From positions 1 to 50,872 of the forward strand of contig JADZAP010000055.1 of NCBI GenBank assembly GCA_020852705.1: a stretch of 50,872 bases of DNA, given 5' to 3'. The translations under genes were made by a program, and so were the position numbers. The notes under the pieces are model-generated. The model was given only the letters and a program-made list of their open reading frames with translations, did not search any database and had not been told where the DNA came from. The stretch's first letter is position 1. Every line of letters begins with the position of its first letter. Positions 3,673 to 47,561 of the stretch are shown piece after piece. The stretch comes from Ignavibacteria bacterium. GTDB taxonomy: Bacteria > Bacteroidota > Ignavibacteria > Tepidaquicellales > OLB5.

Positions 3673-3760
3673 TTAATCTCTTGATTATCCTGAAATTATA
3701 AAATTATTTAAAACTATCACTTGAATTATTAGTTACTTTATATTAAATTGCGTCTAATAA

Positions 3761-3810
3761 TTAAACATTGTTTAATAAATAAACATTGTTTAATAAATAA
3801 ACATTATTCA
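3761..3810 (+). promoter_or_regulatory. Three tandem operator-like repeats in front of tetR
   Basis: TTAAACATTGTTTAA at 3761-3775 is a perfect palindrome around a 3-bp centre. AAACATTGTTT recurs at 3781-3791, and a third degraded copy (AAACATTATTC) lies at 3799-3809. The copies are about 18-20 bp apart and the last ends 3 bp before the tetR start codon. TetR-family repressors bind short palindromes of this kind as dimers, so I infer autoregulation of the tetR - DUF4188 - TonB receptor operon. The repeat is seen; the binding is inferred. Confidence 0.7.
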
Positions 3811-3812
3811 TT

Positions 3813-4427
3813 ATGGGAACTGAGGAAAGAAAAGAACGGGAAAAAATGGAAATGAGGCAGTTGATTGTGAAAACTGCTTTGAAGTTGTTTGCTGAAAATG
3901 GTATTGAAAATGTTTCTATTAGAGCAATTGCAGAAAAAATTGAATATTCACCGGGTGCAATATATTCTTATTTTAAAGATAAAGGTGAAATAATTCACGC
4001 AATTCACACCGAAGGATTTGAAAAACTATATGCTCTGCAAAGATCACTTGACGGTATAAAAAATCCAGTTGATAAACTTGGGCAAATGGGAAAGTTGTAC
4101 ATAAATTTTGCTCTGGAAAATAAAGATTACTACGACTTGATGTTTATTGCCAAAGGAATAGCAGAAAAAATTAATGAAAAAAAGGAATGGGATGCAGGGG
4201 AACGGTCTTATAATTACCTTCGAGATACAGTAAATGATTGCATTGAACAGGGTTATATAAACGATAAAAATGTTGATGCAGTTACATTTGCAATATGGGG
4301 TTTTGTTCACGGTATGGCTGCTTTAATTATCCGCGGCAGGTGCGCAATGATGCCTGATGAATTTATTCAGCAAACTCTCAGCGGCAGTTTTAACTTTTTT
4401 AAAACTCATTTAATAACAAATAAATAA
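3813..4427 (+). CDS. TetR/AcrR-family transcriptional repressor
   Basis: A 204-residue protein with an N-terminal TetR helix-turn-helix at about residues 18-62 (ALKLFAENGIENVSIRAIAE then YSPGAIYSYFKDKGEI) and a helical C-terminal ligand/dimerisation domain. The family represses transporters or catabolic genes and lets go of DNA when it binds a small molecule. Three palindromic repeats abut its start, so it probably represses its own operon. The ATG at 3813 has no clear Shine-Dalgarno sequence. An in-frame ATG at 3846 (residue 12), which follows a GAGGAAAG, is an alternative start. The DUF4188 gene follows after 80 bp and the TonB receptor after that. The ligand is unknown. Confidence 0.9.
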   Translation: MGTEERKEREKMEMRQLIVKTALKLFAENGIENVSIRAIAEKIEYSPGAIYSYFKDKGEIIHAIHTEGFEKLYALQRSLDGIKNPVDKLGQMGKLYINFALENKDYYDLMFIAKGIAEKINEKKEWDAGERSYNYLRDTVNDCIEQGYINDKNVDAVTFAIWGFVHGMAALIIRGRCAMMPDEFIQQTLSGSFNFFKTHLITNK

Positions 4428-7460: not shown

Positions 7461-7555
7461 ATACAGTGATTTGGCTAAAATTTAGGTTTAAAAGGTAATT
7501 TTCCATTTACTTGCTCTGCATGATTGTTTTAGGGTTAGCTTAAATGCTATTTTTG
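7461..7555 (+). promoter_or_regulatory. Shared promoter module, copy A (hydrolase 1)
   Basis: Three blocks recur at four genes of this window. Here they are ATACAGTGA at 7461-7469, the imperfect palindrome GTAATT-TTCC-ATTTAC at 7495-7510, and a Bacteroidota-type core promoter with TTG at 7524-7526, a 21-nt spacer and TATTTTTG at 7548-7555. The leader just downstream (ACTAATTCGGTAGGGAAA) is shared with copy B. The palindrome is placed where an activator would sit, just upstream of the -33 element. Confidence 0.75.
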
Positions 7556-7586
7556 TATCACTAATTCGGTAGGGAAAGTAATAGCA

Positions 7587-7633
7587 GAAAAGATTTTTGA
7601 TTTAAACATTAATTGAAAACTTTTCAGAAAGGA
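7587..7633 (+). promoter_or_regulatory. 5'-leader hairpin abutting the ribosome-binding site of hydrolase 1
   Basis: GAAAAG (7587-7592) can pair with CTTTTC (7620-7625), directly followed by AGAAAGGA (7626-7633), the probable ribosome-binding site. The second hydrolase has the same layout with a longer stem. Confidence 0.45.
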
Positions 7634-7645
7634 TTCATTTCATAA

Positions 7646-9694
7646 ATGAAAGCTATTAATTTCCAAATTAACAGGAAGCGTTTGTTCAGCATTTTAACAG
7701 GGCTTCTTTTTTTATTTGTATCATTTTACACATCTTCACAGCCATTAAATATTCCGGGTGGAATAAATACTTGGCGACCCACACTTCTTCCGCATCTTCC
7801 GGGTGATAATCCATATACAGCCTCAAAAACAGATTTTACCATCACTATGCGGGATGGCATAATTATTGACTGCTTAAAATGGGTGCCTGATGCACCTGCA
7901 CCTCAAGGCGGATGGCCAACCGTAATTATGGTTCACGGTTATGGTGATAATAAAGTTACACTTTCAGAATTCTGCCGACTGCAGGCAGAGTATGGTTACT
8001 ATACTATGACATTCAGCGTACGCGGTCAGGGACTTTCTGGCGGTGTATCTAACCTCATTAGCAGAACTGAAGCTCAGGATTTGCAGGAAATTGTGAACTT
8101 TGTAAGGAATGATACTTTAAGCGGAGTAGGAAGAGATAAGATTCTGATTATGGGCGGTTCACAAGGCGGTGTTTTACCATTAATGGCTTCTTGTATGCCG
8201 GGTGGATTACCTGTTAAGGCAATAATAAATTCTGTAGCCCCCCCAAACTTTGCTTCAAGCTGGATTGAAAACGGCTGCGTTAAAATGTCATTGTTATGGA
8301 CAATTGAATATACGCCTGATACTGCTAGATATAACGGACAGGTTGACCGCATGAGTGAATGGATATATGATGAATCAAAACCTTATTGGGATAGTCTTGC
8401 ATATTGGCTGCCAAAAGACAGGGATTTTACATCTATTCTTTCAAATAACACTGTTCCATTGCTTATAGAAGCAACTTGGCAGGATAAATTCTTTAATGCT
8501 GATGGCTGGCTGCAGAACATTCATCTTGTAAATGCTCCGTTTTCATCATACATGGGTGCAGTTCAGGGGCACGGAGGTGAACACTCCTTAACCGAAGATA
8601 CTTGGCACATGGATTGGTTTAATAAATTTTTCTTCCAGACCTTATGGGGAATGCAGACTAATGTTTTCACAATGCCTAAATATCAATATGCTTCAACGAT
8701 TACTCCTGTTACAAATAATGCGTGGACCTTTGTTCATGATAGTTCAACTGCACCTTTAAAAGATATTTCAACCAATACTAGACTTTATTTTAACGATAAC
8801 CATAGATTAAAAACTACCCCAAGTCACAGGTGGCTGTTTCCTGATGTTGACCTGCTGAAAAATGATGTGCGTAATAATTATACAATAAAGCAGGCTGTTT
8901 ATGATGAATTTACCGGTTCCAATTTTAATAATAAATTTAAAATTGATGATGTTGTATATGAAACTGCACCGTTAGCTGCAAATACTGAAATGACCGGAAC
9001 TCCTGAAATTAAAATGGATTACATTTCAACCTGTAAGCCTTTTGTTCAATTCAATTTTCAGGTATATGAAGTATTTCCGAACGGATCAGCCAGATTTGTA
9101 ACACGTCTTAACTATGAAGACAGGAACAATAACTTCGGATTCCTTCCGTCAAGAAAGCATGTTTCTTTCCGCGGACAGGCGCATTCACATATCTTTTCTG
9201 CCGGAAGCAAAATACGTGTTAAAGTTACAAATTTAGACAGAACAACCGAAGAAACTGAATTTTTTGGCACTAATCCGTTCGTTCTGCCTGCTATGAAAAA
9301 AGGTGTAAGTATTTTAATGCTTACAAATAATTTCTATATTGATCTTCCTATTGTTTCAGCAAACAATTCCAAGCCAAATACAGATTTATTTGTAGAAGAA
9401 AGAGACCCTGCTCCGGTAAATAATGTTCCAGAAAAATTTGAACTAAAACAAAATTTCCCCAATCCGTTCAACCCAAATACAGTTATAAGCTACTCAGTAG
9501 CTAAAGCTGAAAAAGTTGAAATTAGGGTGTATGATATTCTTGGGAAAGAAGTTCAGACACTTGTGAATGAGATTAAAAACCCCGGTTCGTATAATGTAGT
9601 ATTCAATGCTCAGAACCTCTCAAGCGGTGTTTATTTTTACAGGATCAATGCCGGAAGTTTTACCGACATTAAAAAAATGACTCTTGTAAAATAA
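7646..9694 (+). CDS. Secreted S15/CocE-type serine hydrolase with T9SS sorting domain (paralogue 1)
   Basis: A 682-residue exported enzyme. The signal peptide covers about residues 1-32. Residues 60-345 form an alpha/beta-hydrolase of the X-Pro dipeptidyl-peptidase / CocE type: oxyanion region VHGYGDN, RGQGLSGG, nucleophile elbow GGSQGG (Ser172), Asp280 in WQDKFFN and His309 in GHGGEH. A PepX C-terminal-like jelly roll follows at about 430-590 (FNFQVYEVFPNG, FRGQAHSHIF). The T9SS tail begins about residue 605 (NFPNPFNPNTVISYSV) and ends KKMTLVK. It probably cleaves peptides or esters at the cell surface; the substrate is unknown. It belongs to a set of three paralogues here and is driven by promoter module A. 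Confidence 0.88.
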   Translation: MKAINFQINRKRLFSILTGLLFLFVSFYTSSQPLNIPGGINTWRPTLLPHLPGDNPYTASKTDFTITMRDGIIIDCLKWVPDAPAPQGGWPTVIMVHGYGDNKVTLSEFCRLQAEYGYYTMTFSVRGQGLSGGVSNLISRTEAQDLQEIVNFVRNDTLSGVGRDKILIMGGSQGGVLPLMASCMPGGLPVKAIINSVAPPNFASSWIENGCVKMSLLWTIEYTPDTARYNGQVDRMSEWIYDESKPYWDSLAYWLPKDRDFTSILSNNTVPLLIEATWQDKFFNADGWLQNIHLVNAPFSSYMGAVQGHGGEHSLTEDTWHMDWFNKFFFQTLWGMQTNVFTMPKYQYASTITPVTNNAWTFVHDSSTAPLKDISTNTRLYFNDNHRLKTTPSHRWLFPDVDLLKNDVRNNYTIKQAVYDEFTGSNFNNKFKIDDVVYETAPLAANTEMTGTPEIKMDYISTCKPFVQFNFQVYEVFPNGSARFVTRLNYEDRNNNFGFLPSRKHVSFRGQAHSHIFSAGSKIRVKVTNLDRTTEETEFFGTNPFVLPAMKKGVSILMLTNNFYIDLPIVSANNSKPNTDLFVEERDPAPVNNVPEKFELKQNFPNPFNPNTVISYSVAKAEKVEIRVYDILGKEVQTLVNEIKNPGSYNVVFNAQNLSSGVYFYRINAGSFTDIKKMTLVK

Positions 9695-9806
9695 ATAATG
9701 GGTCTAAATTGAGGAAATAAGCAGTAATCAGTGCAGTAAAAGGGAAGCTGTACTGAAAAATTAAGAGAAACAACAACATTCATCTCTGAAAAAACCGGAA
9801 ATATAA

Positions 9807-10040
9807 GGGGCATATACTAATTGACTAAGTAAGTTAAAAAGTAAAGCCCCTGATTTTCGGAAATCAGAACGAAAAACAAAGTTGCAAATTTAAAACGTTC
9901 ACATTTTACAGTTTTAACTTAACAATAATATTTAAAAGAGTTAAAAATCGCTGTTACCCCCGGCTTTTAAGATATAAAGTTAATAAATCATAAAGCCAAA
10001 CAGCTTAAAACCCCGCAGCTTAATGCTTGCGGGGTTTTTA
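9807..10040 (+). ncRNA. Candidate structured RNA / structured 3' UTR ending in a terminator
   Basis: Consecutive helices can be drawn with almost no unpaired bases between the first three: GGGGC 9807-9811 with GCCCC 9846-9850; TGATTT with AAATCA (9851-9866, loop TCGG); GAACG 9867-9871 with CGTTC 9896-9900. Next, ACAGTTTTAAC near 9908 pairs with GTTAAAA and CTGT near 9940-9955, and GGCTTT 9962-9967 pairs with AAAGCC 9992-9997. A terminator hairpin closes it. I see no promoter directly upstream, so it may be the 3' UTR of the hydrolase mRNA. It does not match tmRNA, RNase P or SRP RNA by eye. In AT-rich DNA some of this pairing may be chance. Confidence 0.3.
10007..10040 (+). terminator. Strong rho-independent terminator
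   Basis: AAAACCCCGCA pairs with TGCGGGGTTTT (11 bp, 10-nt loop) and continues into a T tract. It ends the hydrolase 1 transcription unit or the structured RNA. Confidence 0.9.
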
Positions 10041-10313
10041 TTCTTATTTAACCCTTTTTGTATTTTGGATAAATTATAGTAAAAAGTAATATAAACTGCT
10101 TTTTTATAATCTCCTTTACCTGTTTTCGGTAGATGTGATTATTGATTATGTATTCATGGAATTTTGGATTAATAATTTTTTAACAGGTTATTTTACATTT
10201 ATAAATCCCCAATTGATACATTTAGTTAGCCAATTTTTTAGCTGTTTTAACATTGTTCAGTTCATTAAAAACCTTAAATTCATTATAAAATCACTATTTA
10301 CCACTTTATTCAA

Positions 10314-10341
10314 CTACCGTAAATACCCCAATATACGGTAG
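10314..10341. promoter_or_regulatory. Perfect inverted repeat upstream of module B
   Basis: CTACCGTA (10314-10321) and TACGGTAG (10334-10341) form an 8-bp inverted repeat with a 12-bp centre. Related TACGGTA/ACCGTA words occur just upstream of the other three modules (near 7435, 11170 and 12014). This may be a further regulator site. The rest of 10041-10407 shows no gene. Confidence 0.45.
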
Positions 10342-10407
10342 GGATATCAGGTAAATCACGGTAATATTTTCCACCAAAAATAAATGGAGTATTTAGGTTA
10401 AATGCCT

Positions 10408-10501
10408 ATACAGTGAATTACTGATTCATTCGGTTTATATGGTAATTCTGCAATTACAGGCATTTACGATTGTTTTAGGGTGCTTATGAATGTTATTTTT
10501 G
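10408..10501 (+). promoter_or_regulatory. Shared promoter module, copy B (orphan sorting-domain gene 1)
   Basis: ATACAGTGA at 10408-10416, palindrome GTAATT-CTGC-AATTAC at 10442-10457 (perfect arms), TTG at 10470-10472, 21-nt spacer, TATTTTTG at 10494-10501. The distances match copy A to within one base. Confidence 0.78.
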
Positions 10502-10576
10502 TATTACTAATTCGGTAGGGAAAACTGATAGCGAAAGAAGTTTAAAAAACTAATTCTCGTGAAAGGATTTAACAAA

Positions 10577-10960
10577 ATGAAAGCTATCAACAACCAAAAC
10601 CGTGCAGCAAAGAAGCAGATTGCAGTTTTATTCATGCTTCTTTTTTTATTTGCTTCATCTAACATTTTAGCCGGAAACACCACAAATAAGCTTACCGAAG
10701 CTGAATTAAACAATTCACCTGCTTTAACAGTTGAAAATAACGTAATTTTCACATTTAATATTCCTGCTGGCGAATATGTGAAATTTTCAATATATAATGT
10801 AAAAGGTGAAGAAATAAGAGTATTGATAAACGATAGGTCAATTAATGGTGAAATTTCAGCAGATCTTGCTCAGGCATTCTTAAATAATGGCGTTTACTAT
10901 TACAGTCTAGAAGCAGGCGACTATAAAGAAGTTAGAAAACTGAATATCTATTCATATTAA
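10577..10960 (+). CDS. Small secreted protein made almost only of a sorting-domain-like module (1)
   Basis: A 127-residue product. The ATG at 10577 is chosen because GAAAGGA, conserved before all four module-driven genes, lies 10 nt upstream; an in-frame GTG at 10559 lies before that site. Residues 1-33 are a signal peptide (MLLFLFASSNILAG). After a short linker, residues about 60-127 look like a T9SS C-terminal domain (FNIPAGEYVKFSIYNVKGEE, NNGVYYYSLEAGDYKEVRKL). It lacks the NxPNPFNP opening and any cargo domain. The neighbouring gene is a paralogue. Function unknown; it could be a sorting-domain decoy, adaptor or surface filler. Confidence 0.75.
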   Translation: MKAINNQNRAAKKQIAVLFMLLFLFASSNILAGNTTNKLTEAELNNSPALTVENNVIFTFNIPAGEYVKFSIYNVKGEEIRVLINDRSINGEISADLAQAFLNNGVYYYSLEAGDYKEVRKLNIYSY

Positions 10961-11055
10961 TAGATACTTTAATATTTCAGATTTCATTTGTTTTTTTTAG
11001 AGCTGCTGTAAAACAGATAGACTATCATCAAACTCTAATAGATCGTGAAATTTTT

Positions 11056-11083
11056 AACCCCGCTAAATTTAGTGGGGTTTTTT
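11056..11083 (+). terminator. Rho-independent terminator after orphan sorting-domain gene 1
   Basis: AACCCCGCTAAA pairs with TTTAGTGGGGTT (one G-U pair) and is followed by a T6 run. Confidence 0.88.
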
Positions 11084-11176
11084 ATTGGATATAATATTAT
11101 TTTAATTTTTGTGGAATTTTCTGCAATTTTCACATTCAATAACCCCCTTACGTTAGATTAATACAGCAGTACCGTA

Positions 11177-11270
11177 ATACAGTGAAATGTGGATTTTTTA
11201 GGTTTATGGTGTAATTATGCAATTACATACATTTATGATTGTTTTGGGATTCTATAATTTGCTATTTTTG
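11177..11270 (+). promoter_or_regulatory. Shared promoter module, copy C (orphan sorting-domain gene 2)
   Basis: ATACAGTGA at 11177-11185, palindrome GTAATT-ATGC-AATTAC at 11211-11226 (perfect arms), TTG at 11239-11241, 21-nt spacer, TATTTTTG at 11263-11270. Confidence 0.78.
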
Positions 11271-11316
11271 TAACACTAATTAAGTGGGGAGCCATTTGCA
11301 GAAAGGATTTTGTACA

Positions 11317-11706
11317 ATGAAACTAAATAGTTTCAGTTTAACAGTTTTTGCATTATTAATAGCAGTAAATGCTTCAAATTCAGTATTTGCCGGTGATATA
11401 AAAGAGGAAGCAGAGGGAGCTTTACTGACAGCCGTTACTTTAACAAACGATGAAATGCTTACATCCCCGATCCTTGCTATTGCATCAAACTCTCTATTAA
11501 GTTTTACCATACCGCAAAGTGAATATGTAAGACTTTCAATTTTCAATTCAAGCGGCAGAGAAATTGCGGTTCTGATTAAAGATTATAAAAACGCAGGCAG
11601 TTTTTCTGCGGAGCTTAAACATGCAAAGCTAACAAAAGGTACTTACTATTACAGACTTGTTATAGGAAGATATAAAGAAGTACGACGTCTTGAAATAACC
11701 AAATAA
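11317..11706 (+). CDS. Small secreted protein made almost only of a sorting-domain-like module (2)
   Basis: A 129-residue paralogue of the gene at 10577. The ATG at 11317 is chosen because GAAAGGA (11301-11307) precedes it; an upstream in-frame GTG at 11284 does not fit. A signal peptide (ALLIAVNASNSVFAG) leads into a short linker. About residues 60-129 then resemble a T9SS sorting domain (SFTIPQSEYVRLSIFNSSGR, TKGTYYYRLVIGRYKEVRRL, EITK end). There is no enzymatic or binding domain. It has its own promoter module and terminator. The role is unknown, and T9SS export is an inference from similarity to the hydrolase tails. Confidence 0.75.
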   Translation: MKLNSFSLTVFALLIAVNASNSVFAGDIKEEAEGALLTAVTLTNDEMLTSPILAIASNSLLSFTIPQSEYVRLSIFNSSGREIAVLIKDYKNAGSFSAELKHAKLTKGTYYYRLVIGRYKEVRRLEITK

Positions 11707-11734
11707 TTATTCTAAAAAATTATATAATCAAAAA

Positions 11735-11765
11735 TTTTCCCCGCTATAATGCCGGGGTTTTTTAT
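11735..11765 (+). terminator. Rho-independent terminator after orphan sorting-domain gene 2
   Basis: CCCCG (11739-11743) pairs with CGGGG (11753-11757), with A/T flanks extending the stem, followed by a T run. Between here and 12040 I see no gene. Confidence 0.82.
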
Positions 11766-12040
11766 TGGTTAATACTCTTCGGATGGCTTCGCGATTAATA
11801 TCCTAAAAAGGTATTAAATCACTGCCAGATTTAATTGAGTTAATTGCAATAATTTTTGCTTTTTCACTTTTGATTTCTTCATTGCCTCTGCAGTTATTCT
11901 TTAATATTATCATTTATTTTATACTACCAGCTATATTATTTATTTTCTGATTATAACATATATATAATAAAATCAATATATTACAAATCTTGCTTCAAAA
12001 ATCCTCACTTTTGTACGGTAGAAAATTTAATAGTAAAATT

Positions 12041-12134
12041 ATACAGTAATTCGTGTATTCATTAGGTTTTTGGCGTAATTTTACATTTACAGCTATTTAC
12101 GATTGTTTCGCACTTTGCCTAACGGCTATATTTG
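12041..12134 (+). promoter_or_regulatory. Shared promoter module, copy D (hydrolase 2)
   Basis: ATACAGTAA at 12041-12049, imperfect palindrome GTAATT-TTAC-ATTTAC at 12075-12090, TTG at 12104-12106, 20-nt spacer, TATATTTG at 12127-12134. This is the most diverged copy, but the 34-bp distance between the first two blocks is unchanged. Confidence 0.74.
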
Positions 12135-12164
12135 TAAAGACAATTCGTAGGGAATACAATAGCA

Positions 12165-12206
12165 GAAAAAGATTATTTATTAATTATATATCTTTTTCAG
12201 AAAGGA
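12165..12206 (+). promoter_or_regulatory. 5'-leader hairpin abutting the ribosome-binding site of hydrolase 2
   Basis: GAAAAAGAT (12165-12173) pairs perfectly with ATCTTTTTC (12190-12198), immediately followed by AGAAAGGA (12199-12206). This is the same layout as at hydrolase 1. Confidence 0.5.
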
Positions 12207-12218
12207 CATCTATCAGAG

Positions 12219-14249
12219 ATGAATGCTATTTGTAATCCGGTACCAAAGAGACTTTTGATGACAATTCTTTCATTAGCTCTTTTTTTTATTGCTTTTAATG
12301 AAATATCCTTTACGCAGCAAACCACCACTTTTAAGCCAAAAGGTTTAAACTCATGGACTCCATCGTACCTGCTTCCAATGCAGAGCGATAATCCTGTTAC
12401 GGCTCAGCGTACTGATTTCACAATCACAATGCGTGATGGCGTTATTATTGATTGTTTAAAATATACCCCAATAACTACACCGCCCGCTGGCGGATGGCCA
12501 ACCGTAATTATGCATCACGGTTACGGAGATAATAAAGAAACACTTGCAGATTTCTGCCGCGCACAAGCAGAATATGGTTATTACACCATGACATTCAGCG
12601 TTAGAGGTCAAGGGCTTTCAGGAGGACTTTCAAATCTTATCAGTACATTAGAAGCTGATGATTTGATTGAGATTGTTAACTGGATTAAGAGAGATTCAGT
12701 TAACGGATCAAATCCTTCAAAAATTCTTATTATGGGAGGTTCACAGGGAGGCGCTGTTCCTTTAATAGCGGCTACAAGAGGTATGCAGGTTGCAGCAATT
12801 ATCAACTCAGTTGCTCCGCCTGATTTTGCCTCCAGTTGGATAGAAAACGGCTCTGTTAAAATGACATTGCTTTGGACAATTGACTATACTCCTGATACTG
12901 CAAGATATAACAGTCAGGTTATTAGTATGAGGAAATGGATAACTACAAATACTAAATCCGGATGGGATAGCTTAGCATACTGGCTGCCAAGAGGCAGGGA
13001 TTTTACAAATGGTTTAAGCTCAATTACAACTCCAATGCTTGTTGAAGCTGCTTGGCAGGATAAATTTTTTAATGCAGATGGATGGATGCAGAATATAGAT
13101 AAAATTACAAATGCTCCGTTTTGTTCTTATCTTGGTGCAGTACGCGGACATGGAAGTGATGTATCTGCAACAGAAGATATATGGCACATGGATTGGTTCA
13201 ATAAATTCTTCTTCCAGACTTTGTGGGGCATGCAGACAGATATTTTTACAATTGCAAAATATCAGTATGCTTCAACAAGGTTCCCGGTTGTTGATAACAG
13301 GTATTTTACATTTTCACATGATAGCTCAACAACATTATTAAGAAACAGTACAGAACCATTAAAACTATTTCTAAATAAAAATGGTGAACTAAAAACTACT
13401 GTTCAATCAGGTAATTATTCTGCTGTATTAAAAAATAAGATCACAAGAAATTATACTTTACAGCAAGCTATTAATGAGGAATTTACGGGTTCAAACTTTA
13501 ATTCAAAGTTCAAGAAAGATTCTGTAACATTTATTACATCAGCATTAACCGCACCGCTTGAGTGGACAGGTGCTCCTGTAATAAAGCTTGATTACAAATC
13601 AGCGGCTTCTACATTTGCTCAGTTTAATTACCAGATTTATGAGGTTCTGCCAAGCGGTGAAAGAAGATTCATAAACCGTGCTAACTTTACAGATAGAAAT
13701 TACCACAGAAACTCAAGAAAACAGGCTACTTTCCGCGGACATGCACACTCACATGTTTTTGCAGCAGGAAGCAAGATACTTGTAATTATCACAAATTTAG
13801 ATAAAGCACATACAGATGAAGAATTCTTTGGAACAAACCCGTTTGTTCTGCCTGTTATGAATAATGGTGACCACACTGTTTATCTTAGCAGTAATTCTTA
13901 TATTGAGTTTCCTATATTGACAAACTCAGGAATAAGACCAAATGCTTTATTTGAGGAAGAAAGATCAACAGAAACAAGTTCACCGTATTCATATACGCTG
14001 TCTCAAAACTTTCCTAATCCGTTTAATCCTTCAACAATGATACAGTATTCAATTGCTGAAGCACAGAAGGTTGAGATTAAAGTGTATGACCTGCTTGGAA
14101 GAGAAGTTGCGACACTTGTAAATGAAATTCAAAACCCGGGTTCATATAATGTTATGTTTAATGCTGCTAAACTTTCAAGCGGTGTTTACTTCTACAAACT
14201 TACTGCAGGCAATTATACTGATGTAAAGAAAATGACATTAATTAAGTAA
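12219..14249 (+). CDS. Secreted S15/CocE-type serine hydrolase with T9SS sorting domain (paralogue 2)
   Basis: A 676-residue close paralogue of the enzyme at 7646. It has a signal peptide (about 1-34) and an alpha/beta-hydrolase core with HHGYGDN, RGQGLSGG and GGSQGG (Ser175). The Asp is Asp281 in WQDKFFNADG and the His is His311 in RGHGSD. A PepX C-terminal-like domain follows (FNYQIYEVLPSGERRF, FRGHAHSHVF). The T9SS tail starts NFPNPFNPSTMIQYSI and ends KKMTLIK. All triad residues are present. The ribosome-binding site AGAAAGGA precedes the ATG by 12 nt. Promoter module D suggests co-expression with hydrolase 1 and the two orphan sorting-domain proteins. The substrate is unknown. Confidence 0.88.
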   Translation: MNAICNPVPKRLLMTILSLALFFIAFNEISFTQQTTTFKPKGLNSWTPSYLLPMQSDNPVTAQRTDFTITMRDGVIIDCLKYTPITTPPAGGWPTVIMHHGYGDNKETLADFCRAQAEYGYYTMTFSVRGQGLSGGLSNLISTLEADDLIEIVNWIKRDSVNGSNPSKILIMGGSQGGAVPLIAATRGMQVAAIINSVAPPDFASSWIENGSVKMTLLWTIDYTPDTARYNSQVISMRKWITTNTKSGWDSLAYWLPRGRDFTNGLSSITTPMLVEAAWQDKFFNADGWMQNIDKITNAPFCSYLGAVRGHGSDVSATEDIWHMDWFNKFFFQTLWGMQTDIFTIAKYQYASTRFPVVDNRYFTFSHDSSTTLLRNSTEPLKLFLNKNGELKTTVQSGNYSAVLKNKITRNYTLQQAINEEFTGSNFNSKFKKDSVTFITSALTAPLEWTGAPVIKLDYKSAASTFAQFNYQIYEVLPSGERRFINRANFTDRNYHRNSRKQATFRGHAHSHVFAAGSKILVIITNLDKAHTDEEFFGTNPFVLPVMNNGDHTVYLSSNSYIEFPILTNSGIRPNALFEEERSTETSSPYSYTLSQNFPNPFNPSTMIQYSIAEAQKVEIKVYDLLGREVATLVNEIQNPGSYNVMFNAAKLSSGVYFYKLTAGNYTDVKKMTLIK

Positions 14250-14731: not shown

Positions 14732-14783
14732 TGCAAGCGACCAAATTATTTTTCGCTTAAATTCCAAATTATTTTTCGTTTCA
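14732..14783. promoter_or_regulatory. Left prophage end with two transposase-binding repeats (L1, L2)
   Basis: CCAAATTATTTTTCG occurs at 14741-14755 and 14764-14778, exactly 23 bp apart (about two helical turns). The L2 copy, extended to CCAAATTATTTTTCGTTTC, is the perfect reverse complement of the R2 site at 45438-45456. Paired sites of this kind at each end are what MuA-type transposases bind. Confidence 0.85.
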
Positions 14784-45437: not shown

Positions 45438-45530
45438 GAAACGAAAAATAATTTGGTTTTAAAATTGCGTTTTTTTTTGATTTTCTTTTTTTCTTTTTTT
45501 TATTAACGAATAATAATTTGGTTTAAAGCA
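45438..45530. promoter_or_regulatory. Right prophage end with two transposase-binding repeats (R1, R2)
   Basis: R2, CGAAAAATAATTTGG (45442-45456), and R1, CGAATAATAATTTGG (45507-45521), are the reverse complements of the left-end repeats (R1 with one change). They are 65 bp apart against 23 bp on the left, separated by a T-rich stretch that may bend. R1 ends 9 bp before the terminal CA, which mirrors L1. Confidence 0.85.
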
Positions 45531-45540
45531 ATATTTATAT
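45531..45540. repeat. Right copy of the flanking direct repeat (candidate target-site duplication)
   Basis: ATATTTATAT, identical to 14722-14731. Mu makes 5-bp duplications, so 10 bp would be unusual; a 4-bp match (ATAT) is also possible because the sequence repeats itself. Confidence 0.6.
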
Positions 45541-45569
45541 TGGAACAAAGTATTAAAAATGTATATTTA
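45540..45569 (+). promoter_or_regulatory. Probable promoter of hydrolase 3 at the prophage junction
   Basis: TTG (45540-45542), 19-nt spacer, TATATTTA (45562-45569), a near match to TTG/TAnnTTTG. The -33 element shares its first base with the end of the flanking repeat, so the prophage has landed right at this promoter. Confidence 0.45.
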
Positions 45570-45596
45570 TATTTAAAACAATTATATATTTATAAA

Positions 45597-47561
45597 ATGA
45601 GATCGATTAAATATTTTTTTATTGCTGTAACAGCTATTTTTATTTTTACATCGCTTACACAATCACAGCAAAAAAGAGCTCGGGATAATTACGAATTTCT
45701 GCAGCTTCTTCCAAAGTATTCAAATACTGATAATTTACCTGTAACCCGGGTTGATTTTACTGTTACATTGCGTGATGGTACAATTCTTGATGCCCTAAAA
45801 TTTATTCCGGTTGGTACACCTCCAGCCGGCGGCTGGCCAACTGTAGTATTTGTTCATGGGTATGGTGATAACAAAGAAACTCTGGCGGGCTTTGCTAAAG
45901 CACAGGCAGAATACGGCTACTATACTACAACTTTCAGTATGAGGGGGCAGGGAAATTCAACCGGACTTTCAAACCTTATTTCAACTACAGAAGCTGAAGA
46001 TATGATTGAGTTCATAAACTTCATTAAACAAGATACCCCAAACGGCATTAATCCCAACAACATACTTGTTATGGGCGGTTCACAGGGCGGGCTGATTCCC
46101 TATATGGCATGTACTATGGGAATGAACGTAAAAACTATAATTTCTGCTCTTGCTCCGCCTAACTTTGCTTCAAGCTGGATTGAGAACGGCTGCATTAAAA
46201 TGACTTTGCTGTGGACAGTGGAATATACTCCCGATACAGCAAGATATACTCCTCAAGTTGACCGTATGAGCGATTGGATTTATGCTTCTAATAAACAATA
46301 CTGGGATAGTCTTGCTTATTGGCTTCCAATTAACAGAGATTTTATGGCAAATATTCCAAACAACAGAGTTCCTTTGATTATGGAAGGTTCATGGCAGGAT
46401 AAATTTTTTAATGCATCAGGAATAATGAAAGCTTCTATGCTTAACACAGGTTCAACGTTTCACCTCTATATTGGGGCAGTTCAGGGGCATGGCGGCGACC
46501 ACTCGCCAACTGAAGATATCTGGCACATGAACTTTTTTAATGACTGGTTTTTCAGCTGGCTTTTTCCAAGTATAGGTTCACCTTTACCCCACGCAGACTA
46601 TGATTATGCCTTCACTAACTTTCCTGTTAACGGGCAGTATTGGAGCTTTACACATGACAGCTCAACTGTACCATTGCAGAATATTACAACTCCATACAGA
46701 TTATATTTTAATACAAACAACCGACTTACAACTAATGCAGGTACAACTTCCAGACGAGTTACTATAAGAAACAGAGTCAGCGGTGGCTTAACAATGCATG
46801 AAGCAGTTGATGAAGAATTTACCGGCTCCGCATTTAACAGAAAATTCACAAAAAAATCTGTAATATTTAATTCACCTGTTTTAACTTCAGATTTAAAATG
46901 GGTTGGTATTCCTAAGGTTAACATGGATTATCTTTCAACTGCAAATGTTTTTACTCAGTATAATTTTCAGGTGTTAGAAGTTGACCAAAATGGCAAAGAA
47001 AAGCTGATTAACAGAATAAACTATACCGATAGAAATTACACAGCTAACTCCAGAAGGTATGCAAATTTTGACGGGCAGGCACATGCACATATTTTTAAAG
47101 CCGGAAACAGAATCAGAATTAGGGTAACTAATCTTGATACGCATTCAGATGATACGTGGTTTCTTGGGACAAACCCGTTTGTATTGCCTGTGCTTAACAA
47201 TGGCTATAATTATATGTATTTAAACAATAATTCTTATATTGAGCTTCCGGTAATTAATGCATCAGATAATTTTGCATTTAACAATAACGAAACCCCGTCT
47301 GAATTTTCATTAAGCCAAAACTATCCAAATCCTTTTAATCCTGTTACAGTTATCAATTATTCTGTTCCTGTAAAAGGATTGGTTTCTTTAAAGATTTATG
47401 ATGTAACCGGCAGGGAAGTTGCAGTATTACTAAATGGTGTTCAACAGGCAGGCAGCGGCAGTGTTACATTTAATGCGTCAAATTATTCAAGCGGTGTATA
47501 TTTTTATAAATTTACCGCAGGAAGTTTTAGCAGTACTAAAAAAATGGTTCTTGTAAAATAA
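45597..47561 (+). CDS. Secreted S15/CocE-type serine hydrolase with T9SS sorting domain (paralogue 3)
   Basis: A 654-residue paralogue of the enzymes at 7646 and 12219. The ATG at 45597 is preferred because a signal peptide (FFIAVTAIFIFTSLTQSQQ) follows it; an upstream in-frame TTG (45540) is next to the prophage junction and adds 19 unlikely residues. The triad residues are Ser162 (GGSQGG), Asp268 (WQDKFFN) and His298 (GHGGDH). A PepX C-terminal-like domain and a T9SS tail (NYPNPFNPVTVINYSV, ending KKMVLVK) complete it. It lacks the shared promoter module and the leader hairpin. The substrate is unknown. Confidence 0.87.
   Translation: MRSIKYFFIAVTAIFIFTSLTQSQQKRARDNYEFLQLLPKYSNTDNLPVTRVDFTVTLRDGTILDALKFIPVGTPPAGGWPTVVFVHGYGDNKETLAGFAKAQAEYGYYTTTFSMRGQGNSTGLSNLISTTEAEDMIEFINFIKQDTPNGINPNNILVMGGSQGGLIPYMACTMGMNVKTIISALAPPNFASSWIENGCIKMTLLWTVEYTPDTARYTPQVDRMSDWIYASNKQYWDSLAYWLPINRDFMANIPNNRVPLIMEGSWQDKFFNASGIMKASMLNTGSTFHLYIGAVQGHGGDHSPTEDIWHMNFFNDWFFSWLFPSIGSPLPHADYDYAFTNFPVNGQYWSFTHDSSTVPLQNITTPYRLYFNTNNRLTTNAGTTSRRVTIRNRVSGGLTMHEAVDEEFTGSAFNRKFTKKSVIFNSPVLTSDLKWVGIPKVNMDYLSTANVFTQYNFQVLEVDQNGKEKLINRINYTDRNYTANSRRYANFDGQAHAHIFKAGNRIRIRVTNLDTHSDDTWFLGTNPFVLPVLNNGYNYMYLNNNSYIELPVINASDNFAFNNNETPSEFSLSQNYPNPFNPVTVINYSVPVKGLVSLKIYDVTGREVAVLLNGVQQAGSGSVTFNASNYSSGVYFYKFTAGSFSSTKKMVLVK

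Follow-up and report, generated by a model that had tools for sequence, protein, structure and literature searches.

Why should four neighbouring genes of an uncultured bacterium each be preceded by the same short DNA boxes at the same spacing? The question is raised by a contig of 50,872 nucleotides from an Ignavibacteria bacterium of the OLB5 lineage (GenBank assembly GCA_020852705.1, contig JADZAP010000055.1), the whole of which is here called the window. Two hydrolases and two small proteins, all with a predicted sorting domain of the type IX secretion system (T9SS), are encoded in the order hydrolase A, small protein B, small protein C, hydrolase D. Our sequence comparisons make it reasonably probable that a primary-sigma promoter with upstream activator sites jointly controls a handful of T9SS-exported proteins; a conserved leader on the transcript may tune translation.

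The promoter module and its distribution

A pattern search of the window for the composite motif gives four exact matches, at 7461, 10408, 11177 and 12041, and none in 100 shuffles, which confirms the four copies of the original prediction. These four are still alone when the search is extended to the whole genome (2.94 Mb, 75 contigs, 97.6% complete); the reversed control pattern has no genome match, and the palindrome together with GATTGT is found genome-wide at these four places only. A sequence model of 137 positions, built from 13 copies, returns the same four from the genome (E 9e-27 to 7e-26), the next-best matches being seven weak ones with E from 0.25 to 3.2.

All four copies, named A to D after their genes, lie on the forward strand. 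In copy A the upstream block (7461-7510) runs from ATACAGTGA to GTAATT-N4-ATTTAC, and the core promoter (7522-7555) from GATTGT, with the TTG of the -33 box, to the -7 box TATTTTTG. Copies B (block 10408-10457, core 10468-10501) and C (block 11177-11226, core 11237-11270) have ATACAGTGA and GTAATT-N4-AATTAC with perfect arms, while copy D (block 12041-12090, core 12101-12134) has ATACAGTAA and GTAATT-N4-ATTTAC. From the first box to GTAATT the distance is 34 bp, start to start, in all four. The 28 to 29 bp predicted from GTAATT to the TTG were found (29 bp in copy A, 28 bp in B, C and D), and the spacer between TTG and -7 box, put at 20 to 21 nt, measures 21 nt in the window copies.

The exact pattern occurs in 11 of 99 genomes, namely our own, nine others of the genus and one from another genus of the family, and is absent from all 84 genomes outside the family. 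With the sequence model all 15 family genomes match at E<=0.1, with 69 matches in total. By our own count 44 of these have E<1e-10, in 13 of the 15 genomes, the other two (G005 and G014) having weaker module matches only; nine matches with E of 0.002 to 0.07 were left out of further analysis. In a class-wide sample searched with stricter filters, 9 of 149 genomes match, all members of this family, and of the 140 non-matching genomes the 20 that are listed all fall outside the family, the remaining 120 being unlisted. Among the genomes searched the module is thus confined to one bacterial family. Named records with relatives of hydrolase A are mostly Ignavibacteria metagenome-assembled genomes, for example OLB5, which the NCBI taxonomy places in Ignavibacteriota, order Candidatus Tepidaquicellales.

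The layout was analysed in 40 of the 44 strong copies, three lying outside the fetched clusters and one under the 60-bit nhmmer line. In all 40 the first box and GTAATT start 34 bp apart, which supports the fixed geometry proposed for the window in the family as well. The module is also longer than first noted: it includes an ACGKTA element further upstream, a GG that lies between the boxes, and a leader that is likewise conserved (GTAGGGAA..AGCAG and an A/U hairpin). ACGKTA lies 27 or 28 bp ahead of TACAGT in 29 of 40 copies and is followed by TACAGTGA, then T-N-GG, then GTAATT. The right arm of the palindrome is ATTTAC in 23 copies, TTATAC in eight, AATTAC in four, ATATAC in three, and AATTAG and AAATAC in one each; the perfect arms reported for copies B and C are real, but are not the form conserved in the family. 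CGATTGT begins 25 bp after the start of GTAATT in 27 copies and 26 bp after it in 13. Further downstream, the distance from CGATTGT to the best-matching TATNTTTGTA is 27 bp in every one of the 40 copies, and the best GTAGGGAA match falls 19-23 bp past the start of the -7 box. Between the -33 and -7 boxes a GCC..GGC inverted repeat scores >=6 in 17 of 40 copies, where single-letter shuffles predict 12%, a comparison in which shared ancestry is uncontrolled.

This alignment corrects one detail of the original prediction and gives no support to another. The DNA between the boxes was said to have drifted, but within the 50-bp block all 40 copies agree at positions 17 (A), 23 (T) and 25-26 (GG), and conservation extends into the leader. 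The proposal of two proteins bound on fixed helical faces gains nothing from the spacings: 34 bp does not correspond to an integral number of turns of the helix, and the region from GTAATT to the -33 box varies by 1 bp (27 versus 13 copies). The N4-centred palindrome resembles a CRP/FNR-type site in shape only, and the accessible part of a study of such sites in an anammox community yielded no motif.

With a TAnnTTTG -7 box and a TTG at a constant distance upstream of it, the core has the marks of a Bacteroidota primary-sigma promoter. According to the accessible part of PMC9723704, the -7 box recognised by the primary sigma factor in Flavobacterium psychrophilum reads TAnnTTTG and covers -12 to -5. 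The positions of the upstream boxes and of the start site are derived from this flavobacterial rule, and the transcription start given here is thus a predicted one. The module shares with the promoter described there a TATNTTTG-like box that is preceded by a TTG at a spacing of 21 nt, unchanged in all 40 copies; it differs in its added upstream boxes and conserved leader, and in its occurrence in relatives named Ignavibacteria.

The genes behind the module

Hydrolase A (7646-9694) is S15/CocE-like with a T9SS type A tail, and hydrolase D (12219-14249) is 59% identical to it; both match Pfam S15 above its cut-off and NCBIfam CocE_NonD below its cut-off. Small protein B (10577-10960) has a signal-peptide-like start and an Ig-like sorting domain, and small protein C (11317-11706) is 40% identical to B. 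All four genes are on the forward strand. The T9SS type A sorting domain (PF18962 / TIGR04183) is above both cut-offs in the hydrolases; in B and C it scores 26.1 and 25.1 in NCBIfam, above the cut-off of 23, and 22.1 and 20.8 in Pfam, below the cut-off of 27. These matches uphold the gene calls made from the sequence, and from the sorting domain all four genes are predicted to encode T9SS type A cargo. The predicted structure of small protein B consists of a helix and one confident Ig-like domain (mean pLDDT 82), with which a Foldseek search found generic Ig folds only.

At the N-terminus the small proteins resemble the hydrolases, in the best case with 51% identity over 55 residues (E 3e-13 in a small comparison), part of the match being signal peptide. 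The small genes may therefore be paralogues of the hydrolase genes from which the catalytic part has been lost, or they share a common 5' end with the hydrolase genes. They look constrained, with pairwise dN/dS of 0.08 to 0.29 over nine pairs, of which the three most diverged have saturated dS. On sequence grounds the four genes are old paralogues, and sharing of the module inside the cluster therefore needs no independent recruitment. Terminator-like hairpins follow hydrolase A (10007-10038) and gene B (11056-11079), both on the forward strand. In the region four such hairpins were found where shuffles predict 3.6, and since the count is not above expectation they are weak evidence for single-gene transcription units; each of the four genes probably forms its own unit.

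The 44 strong copies precede 20 hydrolase-like frames, 20 small sorting-domain proteins, and three very short frames of 55-65 codons, where gene types in relatives are assigned from frame length and sequence likeness and domain searches cover the window genes only. The remaining copy, close to a contig end, is followed by a short stretch without a leader or such a gene. In a tree of the 40 promoters the gene types need 7 label changes, whereas shuffled labels need 15.5 and none of 200 shuffles comes as low; the copies cluster by gene type across genomes, with the limits that near-copies alone can cluster a label and that window copies A and C are weakly placed. Recent local duplication or gene conversion is not supported, because the same gene type groups across genomes in this tree. 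At two loci in relatives (L087:10187 and L091:9221) module and leader stand ahead of frames of 55 and 56 codons that resemble the hydrolase start and then stop; these are either broken genes or short peptides.

Relatives also carry 16 weaker copies that score 15-60 bits in nhmmer, the one at L093 being also counted among the 44. Judged by their C-termini, the proteins behind all 16 have a T9SS tail: ten belong to a family of 485 residues, four to a family of 875 residues and two are hydrolases. Pfam confirms the tail for one member each of the 485- and 875-residue families, which have partial matches only, mostly in the tail, in our own genome. An additional 485-residue member in genome G013 carries the leader. 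In three genomes (loci L097, L098 and L102) a 485-residue and an 875-residue T9SS gene lie about 11.5 to 13.5 kb apart, and these pairs are perhaps a second T9SS cargo cluster.

In our own genome 150 T9SS-tail matches are listed (150 of 168 candidates scored), and at least 150 such matches are a large cargo set for a genome of 2.9 Mb. Despite these 150 listed tails, no module copy in the genome stands ahead of any secreted-protein gene beyond the four. The enrichment before other secreted-protein genes, on which the original prediction had staked its regulon, is therefore not found in this genome, and a genome-wide secreted-protein regulon is rejected for it, as only four genes have the module. 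The narrower proposal of a small regulon is supported in relatives by the weaker copies before two further T9SS-tail families, with the upstream boxes of 8 of the 16 at the expected offset. In this uncultured lineage a distinct and rigid cis-module sets apart a few of the roughly 150 T9SS-tail genes.

Activation, common descent or leader control

In the mechanism that we favour a Bacteroidota-type primary-sigma promoter, TTG-N21-TATNTTTG, would drive each gene. Upstream of it would stand a stack of protein-binding sites, ACGKTA at about -125, TACAGTGA at about -97, then the GG, with GTAATT-N4-AWTTAC nearest to the core at about -64 to -49. Their position upstream of -33 makes activation, rather than repression, the most likely effect of the proteins that would bind there. 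One regulator, or a pair, would switch on a handful of T9SS-exported proteins together, and the transcript would open with the leader, GTAGGGAA..AGCAG and the A/U hairpin, probably adding translational control. The module offers a precisely defined DNA bait with which the regulator could be sought, and the leader is a candidate RNA for simple reporter fusions.

Of the alternatives, the one that survives best is shared ancestry only, which would make the module the ordinary strong promoter of an ancestral gene, copied along with it and without a dedicated regulator. We regard this as rather unlikely. It is in keeping with the paralogy of the four genes and with the lack of further copies in our own genome, where the module stands only before paralogues and common descent alone can explain the sharing. 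It accounts less readily for the boxes upstream of the core, which are near-invariant in 40 copies: in the 50-bp block the mean pairwise column identity is 0.96 in element columns, which were assigned after the alignment had been viewed, and 0.51 in the others. The weaker copies also speak against it. In 8 of the 16, all of them before the other T9SS-tail families, the upstream boxes stand at zero shift, with matrix scores of 5.5 to 31.5; among 545 -7 boxes the best upstream score outside the listed sites is -13.5. The model that picked out these sites itself covers the upstream part, so that the scores are not independent and the sample is biased. Positive upstream scores were obtained for 4 of 4 sites of the 875-residue family, 4 of 10 of the 485-residue family and neither of the two hydrolases. 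We infer that the module is shared by descent inside the cluster and has been kept by selection.

Several of these points weigh against joint control by an activator: the restriction to paralogues in our own genome, the late assignment of the element columns, the biased sample of weaker sites, and the six 485-residue sites and two weaker hydrolase sites without a positive upstream score. The leader adds others. A fifth full-length 875-residue paralogue (L169) has no leader by eye. In the window the leader model matches copy A (7563-7625, from AATTCGGTAGGGAA to AGCAG with the A/U hairpin at about 7587-7625), copy D (12141-12198, hairpin at about 12165-12198) and, weakly, copy B (10509-10558, E 0.008), all on the forward strand, while copy C has no match to this model (R2). 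RNAalifold gives no consensus structure on the 57-row leader alignment or on another leader alignment, and on the 13 module copies it gives nine pairs, none of them changed on both sides.

Regulation could also lie mainly in the leader: the promoter would be constitutive, and a structured RNA would mask or expose the ribosome site of T9SS cargo genes. We consider this improbable. In its favour is the specificity of a structured model built from 26 leaders, which at E 0.01 matches 15 of 15 family genomes and none of 29 others in the order, the single match in G014 being not leader-like by eye; a separate leader match in G014, of 28.1 bits, lies ahead of a hydrolase. The 57-row alignment has 22 two-sided-change cells, compared with 10.4 in shuffles, and a covariation score of 0.241, compared with 0.190 (0 of 500 as high in both cases), but it was fitted to the structure model and three doubtful rows were kept in the count, namely G014:C209 and G004:C260 (neither of them leader-like by eye) and one opposite-strand leader hairpin. 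Pairs changed on both sides number 6 against 4.6 in shuffles (85 of 500), which is not above chance, and sliding the pairing partner by +2 gives 23 two-sided-change cells, compared with 22 for the structure. Folding is stronger in 56 leaders (mean z -1.38) than in 150 windows of similar G+C (-0.30; Mann-Whitney p 3e-8, too small a value because the rows are related). In the four 875-residue leaders pairing is possible between an UUUAGUAGG-like sequence and the region of the start codon, at -7.7 to -13.6 kcal/mol, and in hydrolase leaders a start-codon stem (CATCT/AGATG, ATCTC/GAGAT, ATCAC/GTGAT) seems, by eye only, to show compensating changes. A possible mini-hairpin of this kind, CATCT..AGATG, folds at 12207-12221 on the forward strand and includes the start codon of gene D, with like stems in relatives by eye. 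The absence of an RNAalifold structure and the partial set of window matches also weigh against leader control. In our reading the leader may add translational control to activation. A known riboswitch is rejected for lack of an Rfam match: none in the window at gathering score, and in five relative loci eight sub-threshold matches, none on a leader.

Least of all do we expect that GTAATT-N4-AWTTAC is the site through which the four promoters are repressed by the neighbouring TetR-family protein, whose gene (3813-4427) is conserved on the upstream side of the cluster, since, even with TetR homologues (family F2) in 5 of 14 loci compared and in 8 of 8 loci of a separate search, two of them from one genome, the upstream regions of the TetR genes (4 of 4 among those listed) carry an AAAC-N3-GTTT-like repeat just before the start and not the module palindrome, which itself sits upstream of -33.

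A bolder extension of the activator reading, which we hold to be doubtful, is that one Ignavibacteria family has a mobile cassette of promoter and leader that puts selected T9SS cargo, sorting-domain-only proteins among them, under a dedicated activator and a leader that masks the start codon. If so, these proteins could report on, or compete for, the secretion machinery.

Known systems and genomic context

In the accessible parts of the literature, T9SS gene control is described from Porphyromonas and Flavobacterium, via PorXY-SigP and alternative sigma factors. PorXY-SigP controls T9SS genes in Porphyromonas gingivalis (PMC8265659, accessible part). Coordinated control of T9SS-linked genes would be common to that system and the module; the difference is that here the -7 box is of the primary-sigma kind and the targets are cargo genes. 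The proposed PorX box CGMAAAAA-N5-TWTCTTTGC has three window hits at three mismatches, compared with 2.6 expected, and none is in the module. Small T9SS proteins with a C-terminal sorting domain include PorA (246 aa) and Fjoh_0547 (112 aa), according to the accessible part of PMC7712824. Small proteins B and C are like them in being short, with a signal peptide, a sorting domain and little else; PorA has a FimH-like domain, whereas in B and C little sequence precedes the sorting domain and the start is hydrolase-like. Among the matches listed for literature on Ignavibacteria, T9SS control, TAnnTTTG promoters and small sorting-domain proteins, which cover few subscription journals, no title describes the module.

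The cluster has a TetR gene, a monooxygenase-like gene and a TonB receptor as upstream neighbours. Just before the TetR gene, at about 3760-3812, repeated AAACATTGTTTAAT-like units are found, similar in three relatives, and these are likely to be the TetR operator. In a relative examined by Pfam the cluster is followed by a third hydrolase, a pterin dehydratase, a TPR protein and PorZ, families that recur at several other loci; the PorZ neighbour ties the locus to the T9SS. These genes lie close together in relatives; in the window hydrolase D is separated from PorZ and the third hydrolase by a Mu-like prophage (about 14700-45540, with a Mu portal, a Mu-like protease, a capsid and an integrase-core protein). 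The end repeats of the prophage may be CCAAATTATTTTTCG, near 14740-14780, and its inverse, near 45440. The third hydrolase (45540-47561), also S15 with a T9SS tail, is not matched by the promoter model.

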